From: Roseivirga seohaensis
Lineage (GTDB): Bacteria; Bacteroidota; Bacteroidia; Cytophagales; Cyclobacteriaceae
Reading direction: 5' to 3'
Assembly (NCBI RefSeq): GCF_001592945.1
Contig: NZ_LRPB01000046.1
Span: 62,001-126,000 of the forward strand
Length of the DNA stretch: 64,000 nucleotides
Below are positions 2,097 through 12,004 of the stretch, one piece after another. The translations under genes and the position numbers were made by a program. Positions within the stretch are counted from its first letter, which is position 1. Each line of letters starts with the position of its first letter. The notes below the pieces were generated by a model, which made no database searches, had not been told where the DNA came from, and was given only the letters and a program-made list of their open reading frames with translations.

Positions 2097-3107
2097 CTAA
2101 AAACTTTCTCTCAGTTCGAAAGTCTTGCGCATTCGGTTGATCATTTTTGTAGACTCTTCAAAGTTCAGCGTTTGCTGGCCATCAGAATAGGCTTCTTCTG
2201 GCTTTTCATGCGTTTCGAAGATCACGCCATCGGCACCTGCCATAATACTGGCCAAAGCGATAGGCTCTACAAAGTCACGGATACCAATTCCATGCGATGG
2301 ATCTGAAATCACTGGTAAATGCGTTTTCTCTTTCAAAACAGCAATCGCATTCAAGTCCATGGTGTTTCTTGTGGCGCTTTCATAAGTACGGATACCTCTT
2401 TCGCAAAGCAAAAGCCTTTCATTTCCTCCACTAAAAACATATTCCGCAGAAGAAAGCAGTTCGTCAATGGTGCCAGAAATACCACGCTTGATCATTACGG
2501 GTTTATCTACTTTACCCAATTCATCCAGCAGGTTGAAGTTTTGGGTGTTCCTCGCCCCTACCTGATAAATATCGGTGTACGGATACATTTCAGCAATTTG
2601 CGAAACCTGCATAACTTCAGTAATGATTTTAATACCTGCTTCTTTGGCCAATTGATACCACAACTGTAAGCCTTCAATACCCAAACCACGGAAAGAGTAA
2701 GGCGAGCTTCGGGGTTTGTATACGCCTCCACGCATAATAGAAATGCCGTTTTCTTTCAAGTGACCAATCACCTTTCTGATCTGGTCTTCACTTTCGATAG
2801 AGCATGGCCCAGCCATAATTTGAAAACCACCTTCTTCAATCACAACGCCATCGCCAAGGTCGATAATGGTAGGTTTTACCTTCCACTTTTTCGATACCAG
2901 TTTATAGTCGTCAGATACAATATGAATATCGCTGATGCCTTCCATATGACCGATTTCACGGATATCGAAATCTTTTTTACCGGTTCCAATCAGGTATTCT
3001 CCCTTTTGGGTAATCACGGTGGTCGGCTTATATTTCAAGCCCTTTACTCTATTGACAATAGCCTCTTTTTGGGCCGAATTAATGTCTTTCTCGAATTGTA
3101 TAATCAT
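2097..3107 (-). CDS. aroF: 3-deoxy-7-phosphoheptulonate (DAHP) synthase
   Basis: 336 aa. Condenses phosphoenolpyruvate with erythrose 4-phosphate, the first step of the shikimate pathway. Residues 1-70 form a ferredoxin-like N-terminal domain as in the Thermotoga/Bacillus-type (I-beta) enzymes; the TIM barrel follows with MAGPCSIES (metal-binding Cys), KPRSSPYSFRGLG, KRGISGTIDE, LCERGIRTYE and SDPSHGIG. Length and motifs are normal. In the I-beta class the N-terminal domain mediates feedback inhibition; which amino acid acts here cannot be told. It is the last gene of the trp operon, after trpA, so chorismate supply is coupled to tryptophan synthesis. A chorismate mutase domain is absent. The symbol aroF follows common usage for this class. 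Confidence 0.95.
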   Translation of the reverse strand: MIIQFEKDINSAQKEAIVNRVKGLKYKPTTVITQKGEYLIGTGKKDFDIREIGHMEGISDIHIVSDDYKLVSKKWKVKPTIIDLGDGVVIEEGGFQIMAGPCSIESEDQIRKVIGHLKENGISIMRGGVYKPRSSPYSFRGLGIEGLQLWYQLAKEAGIKIITEVMQVSQIAEMYPYTDIYQVGARNTQNFNLLDELGKVDKPVMIKRGISGTIDELLSSAEYVFSGGNERLLLCERGIRTYESATRNTMDLNAIAVLKEKTHLPVISDPSHGIGIRDFVEPIALASIMAGADGVIFETHEKPEEAYSDGQQTLNFEESTKMINRMRKTFELRESF

Positions 3108-3241
3108 GGTATTTAGTCATTGGTCAATAGTCATTGGTCAATAGTAACCAGTGACTATGAATTCTAATTTCTTTAAATATTTTTGGTGCCTCTAATCCCT
3201 GTTTTTCTGATTCACAGATATACTGTTTCACTGATTCCTGA
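3108..3241 (-). repeat. intercistronic simple repeat, aroF-trpA spacer
   Basis: This spacer is built from short words. AGTCATTGGTCAAT occurs twice in tandem near 3116-3145, followed by AGTAACCAGTGACTA. The other half (3200-3241) carries CTGATT and CACTGATTCCTGATC words. The CTGATC words run into the 3' end of trpA and encode its last residues (RSVIG). The layout matches the other trp spacers: one word set next to the downstream gene, complementary words next to the upstream gene. Confidence 0.7.
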
Positions 3242-4015
3242 TCACCCAATCACTGATCTTACAAAACCAGAAATCTTCTCTTCCAAATTCCCCTCTTCGG
3301 AAATGGCTTTAATAAAGGCACTGCCAATAATGGCTCCGTTGGCATTTTCACAGGCTTTATCAAAGGTTTCTGCATTTGAAATACCAAAACCTATGAGGGT
3401 CGGATTTTTCAAGTTCATATTTTTTACGCGAGCGAAATAGTCGGATTGATCGAGTGAAATACTGGTCTTTGCCCCAGTGGTACTCGCTGACGATACCATG
3501 TAGATAAAGCCGTTTGAGTTTTCGTCAATCTGCCTAATTCTGGCCTCAGAAGTTTGAGGAGTGATTAAGAAGATATTGTACAAGCCATGCTTTTCAAACA
3601 TTGGCTTATAAATTTCTAAATACTCAAACATCGGTAAGTCAGGCAGAATCACCGCGTCTACTCCTACTTCTTCGCACTTTGCGCAAAAATTTTCTACACC
3701 AAACTGCACAATTGGGTTTACATACCCCATCAGCACAATCGGTACAGAAACTTTGTCTCTAATGCCTTTCAATTGGTTAAACAACACTTTCAATGTCATG
3801 CCGTTTTCCAAAGCCACACCATTACTTTCTTGAATGGTCGGCCCATCGGCAATAGGGTCGGAATACGGAATCCCAATTTCGATCAAGTCGGCACCCGAAG
3901 TTTCAAGTGCTTCTAAAATTGTAGTGGTATCGTTCAGCTGTGGGTAACCCGCAGTAAAGTACACGTTCAATACGCGCTCCTTTTTGTCCTGAAATAATTT
4001 ATCTATTCTGTTCAT
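3242..4015 (-). CDS. trpA: tryptophan synthase alpha subunit
   Basis: 257 aa from the ATG at 4015, the usual family length. Cleaves indole-3-glycerol phosphate to indole and glyceraldehyde 3-phosphate and passes indole to TrpB. Catalytic Glu46 (LIEIGIPYSDP) and Asp57 (ADGP) are present, as are the phosphate-binding GFGISNAET and GAIIGSAF loops. An in-frame ATG at 4060 would add 15 residues encoded by spacer repeat sequence and is rejected. The last five codons lie in the repeat of the next spacer. Sits between trpB and aroF. Confidence 0.97.
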   Translation of the reverse strand: MNRIDKLFQDKKERVLNVYFTAGYPQLNDTTTILEALETSGADLIEIGIPYSDPIADGPTIQESNGVALENGMTLKVLFNQLKGIRDKVSVPIVLMGYVNPIVQFGVENFCAKCEEVGVDAVILPDLPMFEYLEIYKPMFEKHGLYNIFLITPQTSEARIRQIDENSNGFIYMVSSASTTGAKTSISLDQSDYFARVKNMNLKNPTLIGFGISNAETFDKACENANGAIIGSAFIKAISEEGNLEEKISGFVRSVIG

Positions 4016-4090
4016 TTTTGTGTGTCTTGGGTCTTGCGTAATCAGTGTTGAGCTGATCACTCAACACTCAATACTATCTACTCCATACTC
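4016..4090 (-). repeat. trpB-trpA spacer with perfect hairpin
   Basis: AGTGTTGAG (4044-4052) and CTCAACACT (4060-4068) pair perfectly over 9 bases with a 7-base loop. The spacer also holds ATCAG and CTGATC words like the other trp spacers. There is no T-run, so it is not a terminator; a processing or stability hairpin in the polycistronic RNA is possible. Confidence 0.7.
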
Positions 4091-5272
4091 CTAATATTTT
4101 CCCCATTTAATGTAAGTCTCCAAATCTTTATCGCCACGGCCAGAAAGGTTGATGACCACTACATCGGAAGAATTGAAAGTCATTTGATTGAGTGCGGCAA
4201 AAGCATGCGCGCTTTCTACGGCTGGAATAATTCCTTCGGTTCTGCTCAATAGCACGCCTGCTTTCATGGCTTCTTCATCGGTTACGCTGTAGAATTTCGC
4301 TCTACCTGTTTCAAATAAATGGGCATGTACTGGGCCAATTCCAGGGTAATCCAGTCCTGCAGAAATTGAATAAGGTTCTACAACTTGGCCGTCTTCCGTC
4401 TGCATTAAAAGTGTTTTACTACCGTGAAGAATACCTGGTTTTCCTAAAACCGTAGTTGCTGCAGATTCTCCCGTATGATTTCCCAAACCAGCGGCTTCCA
4501 CCGCTACTAACTGCACGTCTTCTTCATTATAATAATGATAGAAAGCGCCAGCAGCATTGCTACCTCCGCCCACGCAAGCAATCACATAATCTGGGTTTTC
4601 TTTGCCCTTCTTCTCCAACAATTGGGCTTTAATTTCTTTGCTTATGACCGACTGAAAACGAGCCACCATTTCAGGATACGGGTGAGGCCCCACTACCGAA
4701 CCGATAATATAGTGCGTATCGGTTGGGTTGTTGATCCAATGACGCATGGCTTCGTTAGTGGCATCTTTTAGGGTTTTGCTTCCGCTTGTGGCAGGACGAA
4801 CCTCAGCGCCTAAAATGCGCATCCGCTCTACGTTTGGTTTTTGACGCGCCATGTCCACTTCGCCCATGTACACAATGCATTCAATGCCCATTAGAGCACA
4901 AACCGTAGCGGTTGCTACCCCATGCTGGCCTGCACCAGTTTCAGCTATAACCTTCTGTTTGCCCAGCTTTTGCGCCAACAGGATTTGGCCTACTGTGTTG
5001 TTCACCTTATGCGCTCCCGTATGGCAAAGGTCTTCTCTTTTGAGGTAAATTTCCGCACCGTACTTTTCAGACAAACGCTCTGCTAAGTACAGCGGTGTTG
5101 GGCGACCGACAAAATCGCGCAGCAAATGATTGAATTGCTTTTGAAAATCAGGCGCCTGAACAATCTGCTCATAGTTCTCTCGTAGTTCTTCAATGTTTGG
5201 ATAAAGCATTTCAGGAATAAAGGCTCCACCAAAATTTCCGTAATACCCTCTTTCGTCTACTTGTATTTTCAT
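4091..5272 (-). CDS. trpB: tryptophan synthase beta subunit
   Basis: 393 aa, normal length. PLP enzyme that joins indole and L-serine to make L-tryptophan. The Schiff-base lysine is Lys89 in HTGAHKVN; the phosphate-binding loop is GGGSNAAG, and the catalytic Glu region is ETGAGQHG. The protein starts with [10 protein letters not shown], as in TrpB1 that pairs with TrpA rather than TrpB2. It is separated from trpA by a 75-base hairpin spacer and from trpF by a 340-base palindromic element region. Confidence 0.98.
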
Positions 5273-5307
5273 TTCCTTTTGTTTTCTAAACTCTTATATA
5301 TTCGAAC

Positions 5308-5460
5308 CGTCATTGCGAACGCTTGCGCATTAGCTTCAGCGTTGGCGAAGGAAGTAGACTTGTCGATAGACAAGGTTACGACCGCGCCAATCTGTTTATT
5401 CCAACCTCGAAACTGCCGCGTTCTTTATCTCCCGCTGGTCGAAAAGAACTCGCAGTGACG
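5308..5460. repeat. degenerate copy of CGTCATTGCGAG palindromic element
   Basis: Begins with CGTCATTGCGAA at 5308-5319 and ends with CTCGCAGTGACG at 5449-5460, the inverse with one or two changes. Inside are GGCGAAGG, a small hairpin (CTTGTCGATAGACAAG) and CGCCAATCT, which correspond to degenerate versions of the second copy. Lies in the trpB-trpF spacer. Confidence 0.65.
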
Positions 5461-5484
5461 GCTCTGTACACTGTCCGTTCGAAC

Positions 5485-5609
5485 CGTCATTGCGAGAAAC
5501 AAACCTTACGATAGTGAAGGTTTGTGACGAAGCAATCTCACTGTATCTAAAAAAGAGATTGCTTCGTCACCTTTCTTTGCTATCGCAAGAAAGCCTTCTC
5601 GCAATGACG
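5485..5609. repeat. CGTCATTGCGAG palindromic intergenic element (cruciform-like)
   Basis: Outer arms CGTCATTGCGAG (5485-5496) and CTCGCAATGACG (5598-5609) are perfect inverses. Inner arms GTGACGAAGCAATCTC (5524-5539) and GAGATTGCTTCGTCAC (5555-5570) pair perfectly over 16 bases around a 15-base loop. Between outer and inner arms each side has its own small hairpin (AAACCTT/AAGGTTT on one side, CTTTCTT/AAGAAAG on the other), giving a four-way folded RNA or DNA. The consensus GTCATTGCGAG...GAAGCAATCTC is a widely dispersed intergenic repeat in many bacterial phyla. It carries no gene and interrupts the trp operon between trpF and trpB. Confidence 0.85.
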
Positions 5610-5612
5610 ATT

Positions 5613-6227
5613 CTAAATTAAATTCTTCAACTCCTTCAATCTCTCCACATCCTTCAACCCAGGTTCAATCTCAAACTTTGAGTTGACATCAATAGCATAA
5701 GGTTGAACTTTCAAATCGCTTAACGATTCAATGTTTTCTAGGTCAATTCCACCACTTAAAAAGTAAGGAACTGCACCATCATATTCATTCAATAACCCCC
5801 AGTTAAACAGCTCTCCATTCCCTCCTCTTTCTTTTCCTTTGGTATCGAAAAGAAAGAAATTAACATTGGGCTTATACCTTTCTAATTCACCGAAATCAAA
5901 ACTTTCTCCCACCGAAAAGACCTTCATTACCTTAATTCCGTTCGCTTTTAGGTCAGAACAGTACTCTGGTGTTTCATCACCGTGAAGCTGCACTAAATCC
6001 AAACCAAATAGAGCTACTCTTTCTTTCACAAAATCAAGTGTTGCATTTACAAAAACACCTACCTTTTCTATACTAGAAGGAAAAGCATTCAACAACTGAG
6101 CATCCAAACCATCCGCTACATCACGCTTCGATTTTCCGTAGAAAATAAAGCCCATATAATCAGGCTGTAGCCTCAACAGCTCGCTGATATTGGTGCTTTC
6201 TCGCATGCCACAGACTTTTAGTTTCAT
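5613..6227 (-). CDS. trpF: phosphoribosylanthranilate isomerase
   Basis: 204 aa, normal for a free-standing TrpF. Catalyses the Amadori rearrangement of phosphoribosyl-anthranilate to CdRP in a TIM barrel. The catalytic Cys is in KVCGM (Cys6) and the catalytic Asp in FLFDTKG; the phosphate loops are FLSGGIDLEN and AIDVNSKFE, the latter matching the family DVNSGVE with Lys-Phe variants. The heptamer array at 6232-6284 stops 5 bases before the ATG, so the ribosome loading region consists of repeat sequence. Confidence 0.96.
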   Translation of the reverse strand: MKLKVCGMRESTNISELLRLQPDYMGFIFYGKSKRDVADGLDAQLLNAFPSSIEKVGVFVNATLDFVKERVALFGLDLVQLHGDETPEYCSDLKANGIKVMKVFSVGESFDFGELERYKPNVNFFLFDTKGKERGGNGELFNWGLLNEYDGAVPYFLSGGIDLENIESLSDLKVQPYAIDVNSKFEIEPGLKDVERLKELKNLI

Positions 6228-6231
6228 GGTT

Positions 6232-6284
6232 AGTTATCAGTTATCAGTTATCAGTTATCAGTTATCAGTTATCAGTTATCAGTT
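6232..6284. repeat. tandem heptamer array (AGTTATC)7
   Basis: Seven perfect tandem copies of AGTTATC plus four further bases, 53 bases in all. On the transcribed (minus) strand the unit reads TGATAAC, which contains TGA and TAA. Because the unit is 7 bases, the array places stop codons in all three frames. It occupies the leader of trpF. Confidence 0.95.
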
Positions 6285-6388
6285 AAAACGAATTTTTATC
6301 AGCGATTTCAGTTCCCTGTTTCTCTGTTTTCTGATCAACTATTTCATTTTTTCCTGATTTCTGATTTTCTGATCAACTTTTTCCTTTT
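6285..6388. repeat. trpF-trpC spacer, CTGATT-word repeat
   Basis: A pyrimidine-rich stretch built from CTGATT, CCTGTTT and TTTTCTGATCAACT; the last 14-mer occurs at 6327-6340 and again at 6365-6378. It forms the second (CTGAT) half of the spacer, complementary in words to the ATCAG heptamer array on the other side. Confidence 0.75.
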
Positions 6389-7189
6389 TTACACTGAAAG
6401 CTGTTTCCTTACTTGTTCGACAAACTCAGCTGCTGCACGCTCTGGCCTGCCGGTTTTCATAAAGGTCTCGCCAATTAAAAAGCCTTGGAAGCCCACCTTT
6501 TTCAACTCAACAATCGTAGAAGGGTCGCTAATACCGCTTTCCGAAATCTTCACAAACTCGTTCGGGATTTTGTCCACCAACATTTTTGAAGTTTCAATAC
6601 TGGTTTCGAAAGTCTTGAGGTTACGGTTGTTTACTCCTACCACATCTAAATCTGGTGAGAGGTACGGATGCAACTCTTCTTCATTGTGAATTTCCATGAG
6701 CACTTCTAACTGAAGCGTTTTGGCAAATGCCGCTAATTCCTTCAACCGCTCTGGTGTCAAGCAAGCCGCAATCAACAAAATAGCATCAGCACCAATCGAC
6801 TTGGCTTCAATGATTTGGTATTCATCAATGATAAAGTCCTTTCTAAGTACTGGGCAGAAGTTGAATTTTCTGGCCGTAGAAAGGTCTTCGTTCTTTCCTC
6901 CGAAAAACTCAGAATCCGTCAATACAGAAAGTGCCGAAGCACCTGCCTGCATGTAACCGATTGTAGTTCTTTCTACCTTGGCGTGGGCATTAATCACGCC
7001 CTTCGAAGGCGATTTACGCTTGAATTCGGCTATAATTCCCGATTTATCTTCGCGCAGCAAATACTTTTTCAACGAAACTGTTTTGCTCTCGAAGTAAATG
7101 CTCTGCTCTAATAATTTAGGAGGAAAAAGCCCCTTCCGTTCAGCTACTTCTTTCTCTTTGTGTGCTATGATTTTTTGTAAAATATCCAT
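6389..7189 (-). CDS. trpC: indole-3-glycerol phosphate synthase
   Basis: 266 aa, normal length. Ring-closes CdRP to indole-3-glycerol phosphate. The signature motifs are in order: IIAEFKRKSPSKG (catalytic Glu and Lys), LRKDFIIDEYQI (Lys), LMEIHNEEEL (Glu), GVNNRNLKTF (Asn), ISESGI (Glu/Ser) and LIGETFMKTGRP. Free-standing, not fused to TrpF. Operon neighbour of trpD (91-base repeat spacer) and trpF. Confidence 0.97.
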   Translation of the reverse strand: MDILQKIIAHKEKEVAERKGLFPPKLLEQSIYFESKTVSLKKYLLREDKSGIIAEFKRKSPSKGVINAHAKVERTTIGYMQAGASALSVLTDSEFFGGKNEDLSTARKFNFCPVLRKDFIIDEYQIIEAKSIGADAILLIAACLTPERLKELAAFAKTLQLEVLMEIHNEEELHPYLSPDLDVVGVNNRNLKTFETSIETSKMLVDKIPNEFVKISESGISDPSTIVELKKVGFQGFLIGETFMKTGRPERAAAEFVEQVRKQLSV

Positions 7190-7280
7190 TCTATGTCAGT
7201 TATCAGGGATTAGTTAATCAGTGGATCAGTGAATTATTGTCATCCATTCTACTGATTACTGATTCCCTGTTTTCTCGATT
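7190..7280. repeat. trpC-trpD spacer, inverted ATCAG/CTGAT words
   Basis: The half next to trpC reads CAGTTATCAG, then ATCAGTGGATCAGTGA; the other half reads ACTGATTACTGATTCCCTG. ATCAGT-GG-ATCAGT and ACTGAT-T-ACTGAT are complementary over 12 bases with a small internal bulge and a loop of about 20 bases. This is the clearest short form of the spacer element. Confidence 0.8.
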
Positions 7281-8267
7281 TTATAAATCTAATAATGTCT
7301 TAAATACCTTGAGTGCCTTCCCCGATTCAAGCGATTCCCGTGCGTAACCCACTGCATCATCGGAGCTATAGCCTTTACCGCATTGTAAAGCCATAGCCGA
7401 ATTGGCAATCACTACCTCGTTTTGGGCTTTTTTACCTTCGCCTTTTAATATCCTCTCGAAAATTTTGGCCGATTCTTCCACGGTTTCGCCACCAAAAATG
7501 GCTTCGGGCTGAATTCGGGTAAGACCTAAATCTTCAGGTTGAACAATTTCTTCCTGCAAATGCGTGATTTTCTTAAAACCTCCTGTCAATGAAATTTCAT
7601 CATAACCATCGAGGGCATGCAAAATCACAAACTGCTTATCGGTTTTTTGGTAAAGGTAGCCGTATAATCTGGCCAACTCTAGACTAAACACTCCTACCAA
7701 TTGTTTTTTCGGGAACGATGGATTTACCATTGGCCCCAACATATTGAAAAAGGTTTTTACGCCTAAGTCTCTTCGAATGGGTGCTACGTTTTTCATAGCT
7801 GGGTGAAAAAGTGGTGCATGCAAAAAGGCAATTCCGCTTTCGTCCAAACTCTTTTTGAGCTTACCAATGTCGTTGGTGAATTCGTAACCGAAATGCGCCA
7901 TCAGATTCGAAGAACCAGAAACAGAGGACACGCCATTGTTTCCGTGCTTGGCTACGTTCTGCCCTGCACCAGCCACTATAAATGAGCTTAGTGTAGAGAT
8001 GTTAAAGGTGTTCTTTCCGTCTCCGCCTGTTCCACAAAGATCGATGGCATCGTATTCTGGAATATCTACCGGCACACAAAGTTCTAGCATGGCATCGCGA
8101 AAGCCTTCGAGTTCCTCCACTGTGATACTTCGCATTAAGTACACCGTTAGAAATGCCGCCACCTGACTCTGATTGTATTTCCCCAATGTGAGGTTCATCA
8201 AAATCTCCTTTGCTGTGGTCTTATCCAGCGATTTATATTCTATAAGTTGGTTTAATATGTCTTTCAT
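7281..8267 (-). CDS. trpD: anthranilate phosphoribosyltransferase
   Basis: 328 aa, normal length. Transfers phosphoribose from PRPP to anthranilate. The PRPP-binding GTGGDGKNTFNIST loop and the KHGNNGVSSVSGSSNLM anthranilate-site loop are both intact, followed by RRDLGVKTFFNMLGP (anthranilate-binding Arg/Asn region). Free-standing rather than fused to TrpG. Lies between trpG and trpC. Confidence 0.97.
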   Translation of the reverse strand: MKDILNQLIEYKSLDKTTAKEILMNLTLGKYNQSQVAAFLTVYLMRSITVEELEGFRDAMLELCVPVDIPEYDAIDLCGTGGDGKNTFNISTLSSFIVAGAGQNVAKHGNNGVSSVSGSSNLMAHFGYEFTNDIGKLKKSLDESGIAFLHAPLFHPAMKNVAPIRRDLGVKTFFNMLGPMVNPSFPKKQLVGVFSLELARLYGYLYQKTDKQFVILHALDGYDEISLTGGFKKITHLQEEIVQPEDLGLTRIQPEAIFGGETVEESAKIFERILKGEGKKAQNEVVIANSAMALQCGKGYSSDDAVGYARESLESGKALKVFKTLLDL

Positions 8268-8385
8268 CTTCTTTTATTAGTTATCAGAAATCAGAAAATC
8301 AGTGGATCAGGATTTAGTAAATGAGGTGAGTTCCTGTTTTCTGATCACCGTTTCACTGTTTACTGAATCATTGAGCCAATTCTCA
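8268..8385. repeat. trpD-trpG spacer repeat that extends into trpG coding sequence
   Basis: The spacer half (8272-8306) reads TTATCAG, AATCAG, AATCAGTGGATCAGGA; the matching CTGAT half (CCTGTTTTCTGATCACC, TTTCACTGTTTACTGAATC) lies at about 8331-8372, inside the 3' end of trpG. The repeat therefore encodes roughly the last 20 residues of TrpG. Confidence 0.75.
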
Positions 8386-8936
8386 AGCAATTTATGCCCA
8401 TACTCTGTCATGATGGATTCTGGGTGAAACTGCACTCCTTTAACATCATATTCTTTATGACTGATGGCCATGATTTCACCAATTTCGTCATAGGCGGTTA
8501 CTTCAAGTTCACTTCCTAGATCCTCCTTACTCACATTCCAGCTGTGGTAATGGCAAATTTCATATTCGCTTGGAATGCCATTGAAGAGTCTGTCCTCAGG
8601 CTTCACCACTTTAATTTTGCTCGAAACACCATGCAATACTTCGGACATATTATAAAGTGAAGCTCCATATGCCTCGGCAATGGCCTGATGCCCCAAGCAA
8701 ACACCTAAAATACTTTTGGTTGCCCCATAACGCTTTATCAGTTCAGGCATAATTCCCGCTTCTTCTGGAATTCCTGGTCCAGGAGAAAGCAAAATCTTAT
8801 CATAAGCCTCCACTTCGTCTAGTGCAATTTGATCGTTTCGTACCACGGTCATTTCTGCATCGCCCCCCAACTCGCGCAGGTAATGCACCAAGTTGTAGGT
8901 GAATGAATCGTAGTTATCTAGTATTAGTATCTTCAT
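8307..8936 (-). CDS. trpG: anthranilate synthase component II (glutamine amidotransferase)
   Basis: 209 aa. Supplies ammonia from glutamine to TrpE. Class I amidotransferase triad: Cys80 (GVCLGHQ), His171 and Glu173 (VQFHPES). Oxyanion motif SPGPGIP is present. The fold ends near residue 189 (LLENWLND); residues 190-209 are encoded by the ATCAG/CTGAT repeat and look like an added tail. Such proteins may also serve PabB in folate synthesis. Operon position between the four-helix-bundle gene and trpD. Confidence 0.96.
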   Translation of the reverse strand: MKILILDNYDSFTYNLVHYLRELGGDAEMTVVRNDQIALDEVEAYDKILLSPGPGIPEEAGIMPELIKRYGATKSILGVCLGHQAIAEAYGASLYNMSEVLHGVSSKIKVVKPEDRLFNGIPSEYEICHYHSWNVSKEDLGSELEVTAYDEIGEIMAISHKEYDVKGVQFHPESIMTEYGHKLLENWLNDSVNSETVIRKQELTSFTKS

Positions 8937-8985
8937 TTTGTTCAGTTATCGGTTATCGGTATATCAGGAATCAGTTTATCAGGGT
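8937..8985. repeat. ATCAG arm between trpG and the four-helix-bundle gene
   Basis: Reads CAGTTATCGGTTATCGG then ATCAGGAATCAGTTTATCAGGG. The 20-mer starting ATCAGGAATC matches, at about 16 of 20 positions by eye, the reverse complement of words in 9358-9419, so the two arms could pair across the intervening gene. Confidence 0.75.
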
Positions 8986-9357
8986 TTATTGTTTCTCCTG
9001 TTTGCTCTTAACTAAGTAATTGATGTAGCCGTTAATGATTCGAATACATTCTTCCACTTGTTCATCGTACTTCTTTGCTAGTTTCTCATCAATGTATCCT
9101 TCATCATAGGCCACAGTTATGTGGTCTTGTATTTCAGTTAAAGAACCTCTAGAAACCCTACAAAACTGGATATTCTCCTGATAATGAAACCTTCCGTAGC
9201 CTTCAGCTAAATTGGCAGTAACAGATCGCGAAGCCCTGATAATTTGATCAACAAGTTTGAATTTCTCCTCGACAGGAAAAGTCTTTGTCAAAGCCGATAT
9301 ATCGTTCCTTAGCACTCTACCCTTTTTCCAAGCTTCTAAATCCTTAAAACTCTTCAT
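8986..9357 (-). CDS. four-helix-bundle protein (23S rRNA IVS protein / S23 family)
   Basis: 123 aa. The start MKSFKDLEAWKKGRVL, the mid segment IIRASRSVTANLAEGYGR and the later CRVSRGSLTEIQDHI are the signature of the TIGR02436-type four-helix-bundle family. Members include proteins encoded in intervening sequences of 23S rRNA and the Avd accessory protein of diversity-generating retroelements; the family forms pentameric, basic bundles thought to bind nucleic acid. It is not a tryptophan enzyme. It sits in the trp operon between trpG and trpE, flanked on one side by ATCAG words and on the other by CTGAT words, so it looks like a cargo gene between inverted arms. Function in an mRNA context is unknown. 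Confidence 0.9.
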   Translation of the reverse strand: MKSFKDLEAWKKGRVLRNDISALTKTFPVEEKFKLVDQIIRASRSVTANLAEGYGRFHYQENIQFCRVSRGSLTEIQDHITVAYDEGYIDEKLAKKYDEQVEECIRIINGYINYLVKSKQEKQ

Positions 9358-9419
9358 CTGATTATTTTTTTCTCCGTTCCTAATTCCTGATCCACTGATT
9401 TTCTGATCCCTGATTACTA
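9358..9419. repeat. CTGAT arm between the four-helix-bundle gene and trpE
   Basis: Reads CTGATTATTT, then CCTGATCCACTGATTTTCTGATCCCTGATTACT. Words are the inverse of the arm at 8937-8985. It ends at the trpE stop codon. Confidence 0.75.
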
Positions 9420-10829
9420 CTATCTAATATTCTCCGCCATTTCAATGGCCTTTCTCAATGCTCCTAGCTTATTATTTACTTCTTGTAGTTCAGAGGCTTT
9501 GTCTGATTTAGCGACTACGCCAGCACCTGCTTGAAAGTGTAGATTGCTGTTTTTGCTCAGAAAAGAACGGATCATAATGGCATGGTTGAAATTGCCATCG
9601 AAACCCATGAAACCAATAGCGCCACCGTAATAGCCTCGTCTAGTTTTTTCGTATTCGTTGATCAGTTGCATGGCACGGACTTTCGGAGCGCCAGAAAGCG
9701 TTCCAGCTGGGAAAGTGCTTGTTACCATGTCGGTTGATAGCACATCGGCATTCAGTGTTCCTGTTACCTTCGATACCAAGTGAATAACATGCGAGTAGTA
9801 TTGAATTTCTTTATAGGTATCCACTTTCACATTCGATCCAGCACGACTTAAATCGTTGCGTGCCAAGTCCACCAACATGACGTGTTCCGAATTTTCTTTT
9901 GGATCATTATGAAGTGCCTTGGCCAACTCTGCATCTGCCTCATCGTTTCCTGTACGTTTGAAGGTTCCTGCAATCGGATGGATAGTGGCCTCGCCATCTT
10001 TAATCACCAATTGTGCTTCGGGCGAAGAACCGAATATTTTGAAGCTACCGTAGTCAAAGTAGAAAAGGTAAGGCGAAGGATTTACCGACCTTAGGGCACG
10101 ATAAACGTTAAACTCATCTCCCTTAAAGCCCTTCTGAAACCTTCTCGAAAGCACAATCTGAAATACATCCCCTCTGTGACAATGATCAATTCCTTTTTGA
10201 ATGATGTTCAAAAATTCATCATCTGTATAGTTAGAGCTTTCTTCGGCTATGGTTTTGAATTCGTAAGATGGATAGTTCTTATTGTTCACCAAATTGATAA
10301 TTGGCTCCAAACCTTTAGGTGCAGTTCCTTCTGGCGAATGCTCAAAAACATAGAGTTCGTTTTTGAAATGATCGATGGCGATGACATAGCGGTACACATG
10401 GTAAAGCACATCGGGAATTCCATATTGATCTTCTTTCTTTTCGTTTACTGGAATGTTCTCGAAATACTTGACCGCATCGTAGCCAATGTAACCGAAAAGG
10501 CCATTATTGATGAATTTGTAAGGGTTATCATCTGACTCGAAGCTCTTTGAAAAGGCACTGAGCTCATCACCCACCTTACTGTTTTCTACTTGGTATTGCA
10601 TTTCCACTTGGCCGGGCAACTGCTTTGTCAATTGACCATCTTTCAACCTAAAACTGGCCAAAGGCTCGCAACAGATGTAAGAAAAGCTATTGTCATTTCC
10701 ATGATAATCAGAGCTTTCCAGCAAAATTGGATTCTCGTATTTGTCGCGCAACTTTAAGTAGATACTCACCGGGGTGACGGTATCTGCCAATAGTTTTTGC
10801 GAGGTAGTATTTAATATAATCTTGTTCAT
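9420..10829 (-). CDS. trpE: anthranilate synthase component I
   Basis: 469 aa from the ATG at 10829; an upstream in-frame TTG at 10844 is less likely. Converts chorismate and TrpG-derived ammonia to anthranilate. The LLESSDYHG motif near residue 36 is the tryptophan feedback-binding LLES motif. Chorismate-binding signatures are HPIAGTFKRTG, MLVDLARNDLSR, STFPAGTLSGAPKVRAM, YYGGAIGF and QAGAGVVAKSD. Missing any would suggest PabB, and the trp context supports TrpE. First structural gene of the operon; its start is 22 bases after the T-run of the attenuator. Confidence 0.97.
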   Translation of the reverse strand: MNKIILNTTSQKLLADTVTPVSIYLKLRDKYENPILLESSDYHGNDNSFSYICCEPLASFRLKDGQLTKQLPGQVEMQYQVENSKVGDELSAFSKSFESDDNPYKFINNGLFGYIGYDAVKYFENIPVNEKKEDQYGIPDVLYHVYRYVIAIDHFKNELYVFEHSPEGTAPKGLEPIINLVNNKNYPSYEFKTIAEESSNYTDDEFLNIIQKGIDHCHRGDVFQIVLSRRFQKGFKGDEFNVYRALRSVNPSPYLFYFDYGSFKIFGSSPEAQLVIKDGEATIHPIAGTFKRTGNDEADAELAKALHNDPKENSEHVMLVDLARNDLSRAGSNVKVDTYKEIQYYSHVIHLVSKVTGTLNADVLSTDMVTSTFPAGTLSGAPKVRAMQLINEYEKTRRGYYGGAIGFMGFDGNFNHAIMIRSFLSKNSNLHFQAGAGVVAKSDKASELQEVNNKLGALRKAIEMAENIR

Positions 10830-10850
10830 TTTTCGGTTCTTCAATGGCCT

Positions 10851-10884
10851 AAAACAAAAAAAGCCTGCGTGAAGCAGGCTTTTG
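10851..10884 (-). terminator. trp attenuator terminator
   Basis: On the minus strand AAAGCCTGC (10883-10875) and GCAGGCTTT (10869-10861) form a perfect 9-bp stem with a TTCAC loop, followed by TTTTTGTTTT. It lies between the Trp-rich leader peptide stop (10920) and the trpE start (10829), the position of an attenuator. GTGAA at about 10913-10917 could pair with the loop TTCAC as part of an antiterminator, but no strong alternative pairing was established by eye. Confidence 0.88.
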
Positions 10885-10919
10885 AATATCGTTATATTAC
10901 ATATAGCATGTGTTTCACA

Positions 10920-10976
10920 TCAACTGAGTTCAGTTAAATGCCACCACCATGCGCTATGTAAATTTGTGTTTCTCAT
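10920..10976 (-). CDS. trpL: trp operon leader peptide with three tandem Trp codons
   Basis: An 18-codon reading frame, MRNTNLHSAWWWHLTELS, with TGG-TGG-TGG at codons 10-12, ends at TGA 10922-10920. Trp is the rarest amino acid, so three in a row in a short frame directly upstream of a terminator and trpE is the classical signature of ribosome-mediated transcription attenuation: stalling at Trp codons under tryptophan starvation would favour an antiterminator and allow trpE transcription. No Shine-Dalgarno sequence is seen; TTTGGGG precedes the ATG. The start lies about 8 bases after a promoter -7 box, so the transcript leader may be absent or nearly so. Confidence 0.88.
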   Translation of the reverse strand: MRNTNLHSAWWWHLTELS

Positions 10977-10983
10977 TATGCCC

Positions 10984-11014
10984 CAAATCTAGGAAAGGAT
11001 TTTTCTAAAGCAAA
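10984..11014 (-). promoter_or_regulatory. Bacteroidota-type promoter of the trp operon
   Basis: TTTG at 11014-11011, a 19-base spacer and TAGATTTG at 10991-10984 match the Bacteroidota -33/-7 consensus TTTG-N19-TAnnTTTG exactly. Transcription should start about 10976-10980, at or just before the trpL ATG. Confidence 0.75.
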
Positions 11015-11146
11015 CAGAAAATTAAAATTTTCCATTTGAGGTTACTTTTCTATCCAGAAACTGAAGTGAAAAGCCATTCAACCGACATTCTTGTTTTTAT
11101 CATTGAGGAATACCTTAAATTGTGAGCTCAAAAAAACGCTTAAGCC

Positions 11147-12004
11147 ATGACCCGCAAATTGAATTTTTTAGTTGCTGCAATTCTTCTTTTTTCTTTCAAC
11201 TCGTTAGCCTTTCAGGGGCAAAAACTTCAAGAACAAGTAGACTTAACTTCTAAGATTACTGGCCATACGGAAATCAAAGGCAATACAAAACTAAAGGATC
11301 GTCATGCACAAGAATCGCGTGAAATAGTAGCTGATTTCTTAAAGAATGAGCTTTCTGAGTTTATCGATCAAGTTGAAATTGAGAACTACAGCGCCACGGG
11401 AAATAATGTGGTAGGCACCATTATGGCCACTACAAAAACTGATGAATGGGTAGTTTTAGGTGCTCATTATGATTCTGTAAAAGATTGCCCTGGCGCAAAT
11501 GATAATGCCTCAGGTGTGGCTTTGGTGTATTCTGTAGCCAAGCATATTGCAGGTTTAAATTCACGTAAATACAATATGAAGATTGTTTTCTTCGATGAAG
11601 AAGAGCGCGGCCTAATAGGCAGTAAAGCTTACGCTAAAAAACTAAAGGATGAGAAATTCAATATTGTTTCGGTACATACCATTGACCAAATGGGTTGGGA
11701 CAATGATGGCGACCGCGGTTTTGAATTGGAAATGCCTACCGAAGCACTAAAAGATCATTACTTAAAAGTAGCCAAAGATTATGGTTATGAATTCCCAATC
11801 CATATGTCTACCGTAACTTCTACCGACCACCGTTCTTTCAGAAATGTGGGCTTTAATGCCATTGGTTTGACTGAAGAATATGTAAACAAAGACACTACTC
11901 CACATTACCACAAACCAACCGATACTTTCGAAACCATCAACTTTGAATACTTAGGAACAATTACAGTATATGTACAAAAGGTATTTGAGGAGTTGTTGAA
12001 GTAA
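11147..12004 (+). CDS. secreted M28-family metallopeptidase
   Basis: 285 aa with a signal peptide (MTRKLNFLVAAILLFSFNSLAF). The zinc aminopeptidase fold has all metal and catalytic residues in the M28 spacing: His107 (GAHYDS), bridging Asp119 (GANDNASG), catalytic Glu151/Glu152 (FFDEEERGLIGSKAY), Asp180 (TIDQMGWD) and His255 (HYHKPTDT). Probably an exported or periplasmic aminopeptidase releasing N-terminal amino acids from peptides. Divergent from the trp operon with a 170-base shared upstream region past trpL; no clear promoter found. Confidence 0.92.
   Translation: MTRKLNFLVAAILLFSFNSLAFQGQKLQEQVDLTSKITGHTEIKGNTKLKDRHAQESREIVADFLKNELSEFIDQVEIENYSATGNNVVGTIMATTKTDEWVVLGAHYDSVKDCPGANDNASGVALVYSVAKHIAGLNSRKYNMKIVFFDEEERGLIGSKAYAKKLKDEKFNIVSVHTIDQMGWDNDGDRGFELEMPTEALKDHYLKVAKDYGYEFPIHMSTVTSTDHRSFRNVGFNAIGLTEEYVNKDTTPHYHKPTDTFETINFEYLGTITVYVQKVFEELLK

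Follow-up and report, generated by a model that had tools for sequence, protein, structure and literature searches.

The trp operon of Roseivirga seohaensis carries, between trpE and trpG, a gene of the kind found in the intervening sequences (IVSs) of 23S rRNA, and this gene is enclosed by two arrays of complementary short words. The question raised by the locus is what such an arrangement is doing in an mRNA. The original prediction, made for the same 64,000-nucleotide stretch of DNA that we call the window (all coordinates below are positions in it), was that this is an IVS-like element, that the other trp spacers could hold empty versions of it, and that such elements form a mobile family targeting intercistronic sites. 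The reading that we favour, to which we give a probability of roughly 0.63, is that the trp element belongs to a widespread class of minimal insertion elements, here called S23 elements, of which the rRNA IVSs are one habitat.

Anatomy of the element between trpE and trpG

The element and both of its host genes lie on the minus strand. The S23 gene (8986..9357, 123 amino acids) forms the loop; its product, predicted to be a four-helix bundle, matches TIGR02436 at 105.5 bits (cut-off 24) and PF05635 at 112.2 bits (cut-off 33.8), and a profile search of the element's gene returned matches to S23-type families only, with none to a nuclease, transposase or Y1 (RAYT) family. On the mRNA strand, the 5' arm (9358..9419) is an array with five ATCAG words that runs from the stop codon of trpE (9420..10826), the upstream host gene, to the S23 start codon, while the 3' arm (8937..8985), with three CTGAT words and diverged copies, runs from the S23 stop codon to the start codon of the downstream host gene trpG (8307..8936), whose last ∼20 codons themselves run into a word array. 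Arms and S23 gene take up the whole trpE-trpG spacer, and the words of the arms recur with a period of 7-8. Counted on both strands of the 64-kb window, ATCAG occurs 183 times against 126.6 expected (sd 10.7), a number reached by 0/100 shuffles. The gene, the inverted arms and the family assignments of the original prediction were all verified.

As in an IVS, terminal inverted repeats enclose the S23 ORF. The site is the trpE-trpG junction and not a 23S rRNA gene, and an Rfam search of 3000-11200 gave no match. Stable pairing of the arms had been anticipated, and this was borne out in part: the two arms are paired in the minimum-energy RNA structure of the full element, but the energy of that fold is unexceptional (z −1.3, with 9/100 shuffles equally good).

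The AlphaFold2 model of the S23 protein has a mean pLDDT of 95.5, and Foldseek matches it to XCC0516 (2gsc) and BT_0352 (2rld). XCC0516 is reportedly, to go by the title of a 2006 paper, assembled from five four-helix bundles. Residues invariant in a 25-row alignment include W10, P28, E31, Q38, R41, S45, N49, E52, G53, S72 and E75. More distant Foldseek matches, with E-values of 0.06 and above, are to the DGR accessory protein Avd (4dwl and 8ub chains); chain 4dwl_D aligns with the window model at TM 0.77, probability 1.00, E 0.06 and 6% identity, the likeness to Avd being one of predicted fold. That PF05635 resembles Avd is already in print, in passages of PMC10053308.

Each S23 gene has words of its own

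Had ATCAG arms been the hallmark of the family, as was supposed, they should recur at other copies. The window's genome has five PF05635 genes, and ATCAG clusters are found only at the trp copy; the other four have none and carry their own words instead, which rules out ATCAG as a family signature. ATCAG is the word of the trp locus, and the common denominator is an array of YAG-type heptamers. By gene names assigned by eye, the copy between two CoA-transferase genes has the word pair GATTTG/CAAATC, that between ftsA and ftsZ has GAAGTTGG/CTTCGG, and that in an apparent restriction operon has ACGATTTA/TAAATCGT; the fifth gene (L001) has a weaker pair, GGGTATTG/CAATACCC. With five S23 genes carrying different words, a near-identical family is absent from this genome.

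PF05635 genes are present in 19/19 genomes of the set of relatives, the window's genome included, and in 116/148 sampled Bacteroidota genomes. From 104 unique S23 genes in the genus/order set, removal of those with short flanks or partial domains left 99, which occupy 61 junctions; 20 of these junctions are shared between loci, and there the S23 gene and its words are mostly inherited. Within a genome, the words of elements at different junctions are unrelated, with the exception of one tandem pair (G008), although the assignment of junctions is imperfect, and some pairs scored as lying at different junctions resemble one junction with a mis-called neighbouring ORF. Such unrelated words give no sign of recent bursts. 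Within-genome amplification was looked for and not seen, arm similarity between same-genome elements being at background level except in the tandem pair.

The arms are heptamer arrays

Arm complementarity was scored by local alignment of the left flank with the reverse complement of the right flank. Over the 99 genus/order loci it averages 16.0, compared with 9.7 for mismatched partners and 9.6 at 175 neighbouring genes, and 30/99 loci lie above the 99th percentile of the neighbouring genes. Predicted RNA duplexes at these 99 loci average −37.2 kcal/mol against −26.5 kcal/mol for mismatched arms, 38/99 falling beyond the 5% tail. Autocorrelation of the spacers in the genus set peaks at lag 7 (z 23.4 on the left, 15.8 on the right); the peak is echoed at lag 14, and a lesser one is seen at lag 8.

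A conserved-motif pattern gave at least 591 matches, of which the best 80, from many phyla, make up a second collection, the named set. Chosen in this way, it favours typical S23 proteins; 75 of the 80 have the full flanks used for paired-arm counts. Among these best 80 of at least 591, arrays were found in 65 left and 60 right flanks, where shuffles give an expectation of ∼1. Arrays on both sides accompany 52/75 named S23 genes and 2/65 control genes taken from these loci; when an array on one side is enough, the figures are 65/75 and 17/65. Complementarity in the 75 named loci is 23.2 against 10.3 for mismatched partners; 54 loci score above the 95th percentile of mismatched pairs, and 42 above the 99th. 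The mismatched-partner, neighbour-gene and shuffle controls together rule out chance complementarity. In 67/75 named loci the inverted match exceeds the direct match, and in 6 (L205, L215, L219, L225, L227 and L279) the direct match wins; the flanks of two plasmid loci, L197 and L200, also match better in direct order by eye.

When the heptamers of the named set (best 80 of at least 591) are aligned by rotation, left arms and reverse-complemented right arms independently give the degenerate word Y-A-G-K-N-N-N, in which Y is followed by A (0.80 left, 0.81 right), G (0.93, 0.89), T (0.58, 0.63) or G, and three free positions. The information content is 2.41 nats on the left and 2.44 on the right, where left words with permuted letters give ∼1.65. 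In the genus/order set the YAG core is less pronounced (A 0.66, G 0.60; 1.92 and 1.86 nats against a null of 1.58-1.68), and in the small Bacteroidota-plus-plasmid set the 2.24 and 2.08 nats are hardly over the null of 1.89-2.12. On the host mRNA strand, the genus/order left arm is G-rich in 61/75 cases and the right arm C-rich in 53/65, and for the best 80 of at least 591 the skew is positive on the left in 72/79 and negative on the right in 65/77. Directly upstream of S23 and its left arm (L001-L005, L036-L124), TAG stops are enriched (40/82 against 40/192, p 6e-6, in a count where orthologous loci are not independent). This excess fits the YAG core: the stop codon may be where an arm starts, or may be contributed by the arm.

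Are the arrays then simply repeats made by ordinary slippage, with S23 a passenger that is found in them or inserts into them? Gene-less arrays are common enough to make this worth asking: the window's genome has 44 (partly overlapping) matches to the ATCAG triple where a reversed control has 4, the either-side frequency at control genes (17/65) is far from nil, and orphan arrays are described for Xanthomonas, Nostoc and Beggiatoaceae in parts of the papers cited in the last section. Seven of the seven ATCAG-triple places checked are intergenic. Several contig ends of the draft genome G000 (C2, C3, C9, C28, C44) fall within ATCAG tandem arrays, and longer arrays may for this reason be missing from the assembly. 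Nor did a test for co-occurrence of arms and gene across Bacteroidota, made with one TAACTGA-type run, give an association: a perfect CAGTTAT run is present in 11/148 genomes, of which 9 have S23, no excess when 116/148 have it overall, and the other 2/11 are genomes with arrays and no S23. TAACTGA-type heptamers were also noted in two Bacteroidota genomes (L317, L318), apparently within coding sequence and directly following an NPFNP-like motif identified by eye. Against slippage stand the matching inverted words on both sides of S23 in most loci examined, and the one degenerate core common to the all-phyla set (best 80 of at least 591); a third argument comes from copies inside coding genes, described below.

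Other trp junctions of the window

Period-7 arrays were called in the window from identities at lag 7, with 20 shuffles as the control. With at least 14/21 identities there are 7 arrays (shuffles: mean 3.35, maximum 6), 6/7 of them at trp junctions between 3106 and 9430; with at least 15/21 there are 4, against 0.7 in shuffles (maximum 2). The statement that all other trp spacers have facing ATCAG and CTGAT words was right for three, each of which holds a gene-less hairpin on the minus strand that we regard as putative solo arms: trpG-trpD (8262..8365, fold z −1.2), trpD-trpC (7190..7280, z −3.3) and trpC-trpF (6228..6388, z −5.3 for 6228-6375), the last containing a perfect TAACTGA run. It was wrong for the others. 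The trpA-aroF junction (3108..3241, minus strand, fold z −0.7) has one-sided ATCAG words and a hairpin of a different heptamer, the trpB-trpA junction (4052..4091, minus strand) has a single array of another heptamer, and much of the trpF-trpB spacer (5273-5612) is an unrelated palindromic repeat, CGTCATTGCGAG...GCAATGACG, which is also present in trp spacers of several relatives.

Folded as the mRNA strand, two of the four solo spacers clearly beat their shuffles (z −3.3 and −5.3) and two do not (−1.2 and −0.7), and for some solo hairpins the other strand folds at least as well. The words at some of these spacers differ from those of the genome's five S23 elements. At the trpG-trpD junction, the C-terminal tail of TrpG (∼20 codons, 8307-8370) is encoded by the heptamer-word array, as though the gene's first stop codon had given way to an arm. 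We infer that the window's other trp spacers are empty versions of the element.

The trp site in relatives

Comparison of the trp spacers with those of relatives covered 18 genomes of the genus with trpE (of 19 searched), the window's included. An S23 gene lies between trpE and trpG in G000, G004, G019, G007, G009 and G022, and in G006 it follows trpE where the contig ends, a seventh occupied trpE site. Elsewhere in the operon, S23 genes lie between trpG and trpD in G024 and G012, and between trpC and trpF in G010 and G024. In G023, G010, G011 and G005, trpE and trpG overlap by 4 nt, and in G003 they are separated by 7 nt. The trpE-trpG spacer of G024 has both arms and the first ∼13 and the last codons of S23, the remainder being gone; it is plainly an internal deletion of an S23 element, leaving a gene-less derivative. 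The proposal that gene-less spacers are empty versions of the element has in this spacer an actual case, while for the window's own spacers it stays at the strength given above.

Closely related genomes can differ at the trp site. The TrpE proteins of G004 and G019 are both 98% identical to the window's; the G019 element is close to the window's (S23 96% identical, ATCAG words, with a TAACTGA doublet as part of the 3' arm), and the G004 element differs from it (S23 68% identical, words GTTATTGG). G000 and G004 share an almost identical trpD-trpC hairpin, and G019 has another. From these occupied, swapped, deleted and empty sites, of which the original prediction had asked for the empty ones, it appears that certain fixed positions exchange, acquire or lose both elements and gene-less hairpins. 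The empty sites, both in the trp relatives and in the plasmid homologues described below, are too diverged to show duplicated bases, and no target duplication was seen in them. At the trp junctions of the 18 genomes, most short gene-less spacers had hairpin z-scores that did not reach the threshold. At trpC-trpF in two genomes (L146 in G001, L155 in G022), an unrelated ORF of ∼110 aa lies between heptamer-like words, possibly as another cargo.

These data bear on a second account, in which the element is a module that serves its host: an RNA-binding S23, made in the operon, would bind its own arms and tune the processing, stability or coupling of the cistrons. The concentration of 99 genes in 61 junctions, 20 of them shared between loci, suits this account, as does the keeping of words at a junction. 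The patchy presence within the genus, the empty 4-nt overlaps and the deleted copy at trpE-trpG do not.

Copies nested inside coding genes

We called a copy nested if one of the other sense frames runs without a stop through S23 and for at least 60 codons past both sides. There are 11 such copies among 251 loci (L036, L163, L179, L188, L203, L209, L213, L263, L271, L282 and L294), each within one uninterrupted host ORF; these ORFs measure at least 728-1290 aa, the majority running off the fetched stretch. Every open alternative sense frame, nested or not, is frame +2 (17/17). By Pfam, 10/11 nested hosts are DNA-modification enzymes of the N6_N4_Mtase, Eco57I/MmeI-type or type ISP families, the assignment of L263 being from matches below the curated cut-offs only; the type ISP domain match of L036 comes in two stretches. 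One nested host, on a viral contig, is DNA polymerase III alpha, in which the block of arms and S23 lies between the NTPase and finger domains.

Plasmid homologues of the L213 host from Rhizobium and Picosynechococcus are without the block. The Rhizobium protein shares 463/733 aligned positions, and where L213 reads '...FVIFGEPDI [block] VTIHGVDVF...' it reads '...FVVFGEPDVDILDDGGPQIRVKVNGVDVF...'. A comparison of L036 with a Rhizobium type ISP enzyme agrees with the reading of L213. The lack of the block in these homologues is direct evidence that arms and S23 entered L213 as an insertion that kept both frames open in place, the array pair arriving with S23. In the nested copies, S23 and the host enzyme are open in two frames of the same DNA, an apparent case of dual coding by insertion. 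The open read-through frame argues against cutting of these mRNAs.

An array pair that arrives together with S23 inside a coding gene is the third argument against slippage, an explanation that we consider a long shot. Insertion inside proteins also tells against the host-serving module.

Other habitats and orientation

A tblastn search of plasmids with the S23 protein gave 36 records, mostly cyanobacterial, of which 12 were read; by eye, most have inverted word arms, L197 and L200 have direct arrays, and one of the 12 (L199) has no evident arms. In Azospirillum lipoferum (L196), the Rfam match to bacterial LSU rRNA (RF02541) extends across the S23 gene, which is thus located within an rRNA gene, between heptamer arms GAGGACGGATGACAGAGGACGGAGGACAG and CTGTCTTCTGTCATCCGTCTTCTG; this copy is a classical IVS with heptamer arms. 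The likeness to 23S rRNA IVSs from which the original prediction set out is upheld by this shared anatomy and by the heptamers published for the Coxiella IVS, as reported in part of PMC4990558. None of the named set (0/80, the best 80 of at least 591) lies within 23S rRNA by blastn. Two copies are in CRISPR operons, at cas10-cmr3 and cas6-cas4, with heptamer arrays that are inverted at L192 and direct at L197. On viral contigs, 30 S23 matches gave 27 unique loci with flanks, in which arm complementarity is 21.3 against 10.1 for mismatched partners and 18/27 loci lie above the 95th percentile. A family that targets intercistronic positions, as predicted, is thus right as far as operon junctions go, but rRNA and coding genes are hit too.

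S23 is strongly biased towards the sense of its neighbours. In the genus/order and Bacteroidota sets combined it is co-directional with same-strand neighbours in 114 cases and opposed to them in 2 (p 1.6e-31, in a sample where orthologous loci are not independent; the 30-locus Bacteroidota set by itself gives 23 against 1), after exclusion of 5 undetermined and 8 mixed loci of 129. For the best 80 of at least 591 the counts are 46 same-strand and 4 opposite, with 8 undetermined and 22 mixed of 80 excluded, and in the small plasmid set they are 7 and 3. Such a bias points to use of the host transcript.

Pairing at the RNA or the DNA level

If pairing of the arms were selected in RNA, sense-strand G-U pairs should outnumber A-C mismatches. 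Over 122 loci there are 184 G-U and 192 A-C, which gives no sign of RNA-level selection on pairing and led us to reject RNA-level covariation. The sense duplex is more stable than the antisense duplex in 54 of the 99 loci and less stable in 44. Given similar G-U and A-C counts, and the unexceptional fold of the window element, pairing may be kept by a process at the DNA level. Orientation bias and rRNA habitat speak for a role of the transcript.

A third account puts everything into DNA. In a system of the REP/RAYT type, S23 would act on cruciform or single-stranded heptamer hairpins and spread solo hairpins, RNA having no part. The lack of wobble asymmetry is what such a system would give, the opposite strand of some solo hairpins does fold as well or better, and solo arms and one deletion derivative exist. 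However, sense orientation and the rRNA habitat point to transcripts, S23 is without a nuclease or transposase family match, and the solo word at some trp spacers is not that of any of the genome's five S23 elements; we judge this account improbable. The host-serving module draws support from the strong sense orientation, but it is burdened by the absence of RNA-level covariation and by hosts that are functionally unrelated (rRNA, restriction-modification genes, CRISPR operons), and it strikes us as unlikely, if somewhat less so than the REP/RAYT type.

How S23 elements may work

On the insertion-element reading, an S23 element would have the layout (YAGKNNN)n - S23 - (NNNMCTR)n, roughly, each element spelling NNN in its own way. 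Landing sites would be transcribed genes that tolerate extra sequence, namely operon junctions, rRNA loops and the linkers of large proteins, entered mostly in sense, and S23-bearing 23S rRNA IVSs would be the members that landed in rRNA. S23 would be expressed from the host transcript. The arms would pair, and in host RNAs that can bear cutting they may be cleaved like those of rRNA IVSs. S23, as an Avd-like four-helix protein, might recognise the YAG arms or their RNA and aid the copying of the element. Movement would be rare, leaving most copies to be inherited in place.

Several of our results count against this reading. One group is the absence of a transposase and of near-identical copies, with no target duplication seen at the diverged empty sites; another is the conservation of many elements at one junction across species, as is seen for genes that serve the host; and a third is made up of the null result of the wobble test, the unexceptional fold, the near-balance of sense and antisense duplex stability, the weaker YAG core in the genus and in the Bacteroidota-plus-plasmid set, the loci with direct-order arms or, at L199, none evident, and the lack of association with the CAGTTAT run. 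The suggestion from Coxiella that the S23 protein is not produced, and the read-through frame of nested copies, belong on this side too.

S23 (PF05635) is frequent in the sampled Bacteroidota, and heptamer repeats in spacers have been reported, in the portions of the literature considered here, without an origin. Tying the two together makes testable the binding target of S23, the upkeep of matching words in the two arms, and the mode of movement.

Comparison with known systems

Intervening sequences of 23S rRNA with an S23 ORF were reportedly described by Ralph and McClelland in 1993. As in the window element, their terminal inverted repeats enclose a loop with an ORF of the S23 family; they differ in habitat, the window copy being in an mRNA junction and others inside coding genes. 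In the Coxiella IVS, according to sections of PMC4990558, tandem GACAGAT heptamers precede the S23 start codon and RNase III cuts at the first heptamer repeat. GACAGAT can be read as CAGATGA, and arm heptamers are common to this IVS and the window element; those sections of PMC4990558 do not say how general heptamer arms are. The same sections suggest that Coxiella does not produce S23p in vivo and that the RNA is the more important part, an argument against S23 having a role in that IVS. Further hosts of the protein family are on record: 18 23S_rRNA_IVP genes in cas loci, treated as a cas-associated function, in parts of PMC3936711, and an rRNA insertion ORF of CPR bacteria in parts of PMC11270868, the arms being described in neither of these parts.

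Orphan heptamer repeats are the second point of comparison. Passages of PMC4679880 give TAACTGA intergenic repeats in Beggiatoaceae, cyanobacteria and Bacteroidetes, and passages of PMC4692102 give GGGAATC and GGGGA(C/T)T repeats in Xanthomonas and Nostoc, those of Xanthomonas in convergent pairs. As far as these passages go, the repeats share with S23 arms a seven-base period, a mostly intergenic location and a core that fits YAG or YGG; neither main text uses the term 'S23' or 'four helix'. We propose that orphan heptamers are linked to S23 elements, the Xanthomonas and Beggiatoaceae repeats being known here from their published words. At its widest, the proposal is that S23 elements form a bacteria-wide class of insertions tolerated in transcripts. 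A single system, with an Avd-like protein working on private arms of YAG heptamers, would then have as its members or relics the rRNA IVSs, the S23 genes of operons, CRISPR loci and nested sites, and the orphan repeats of Xanthomonas, Nostoc and Beggiatoaceae; to this we would give even odds.

REP/RAYT systems and MITEs also provide short palindromic spacers and gene-less derivatives of gene-bearing elements. The S23 element differs from them in having no Y1 or DDE transposase, and in arms that are tandem heptamers with a spelling private to each element; from a classical insertion sequence or MITE it is further set apart by the absence of a transposase gene and of near-identical genomic copies. 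Among open-licence PMC papers, we found no description of S23 elements with heptamer arms, whether placed in operons or nested within coding sequence. The S23 IVS is as a kind already known, and it is the habitat, the general arm code and the nested insertions that appear to be new.
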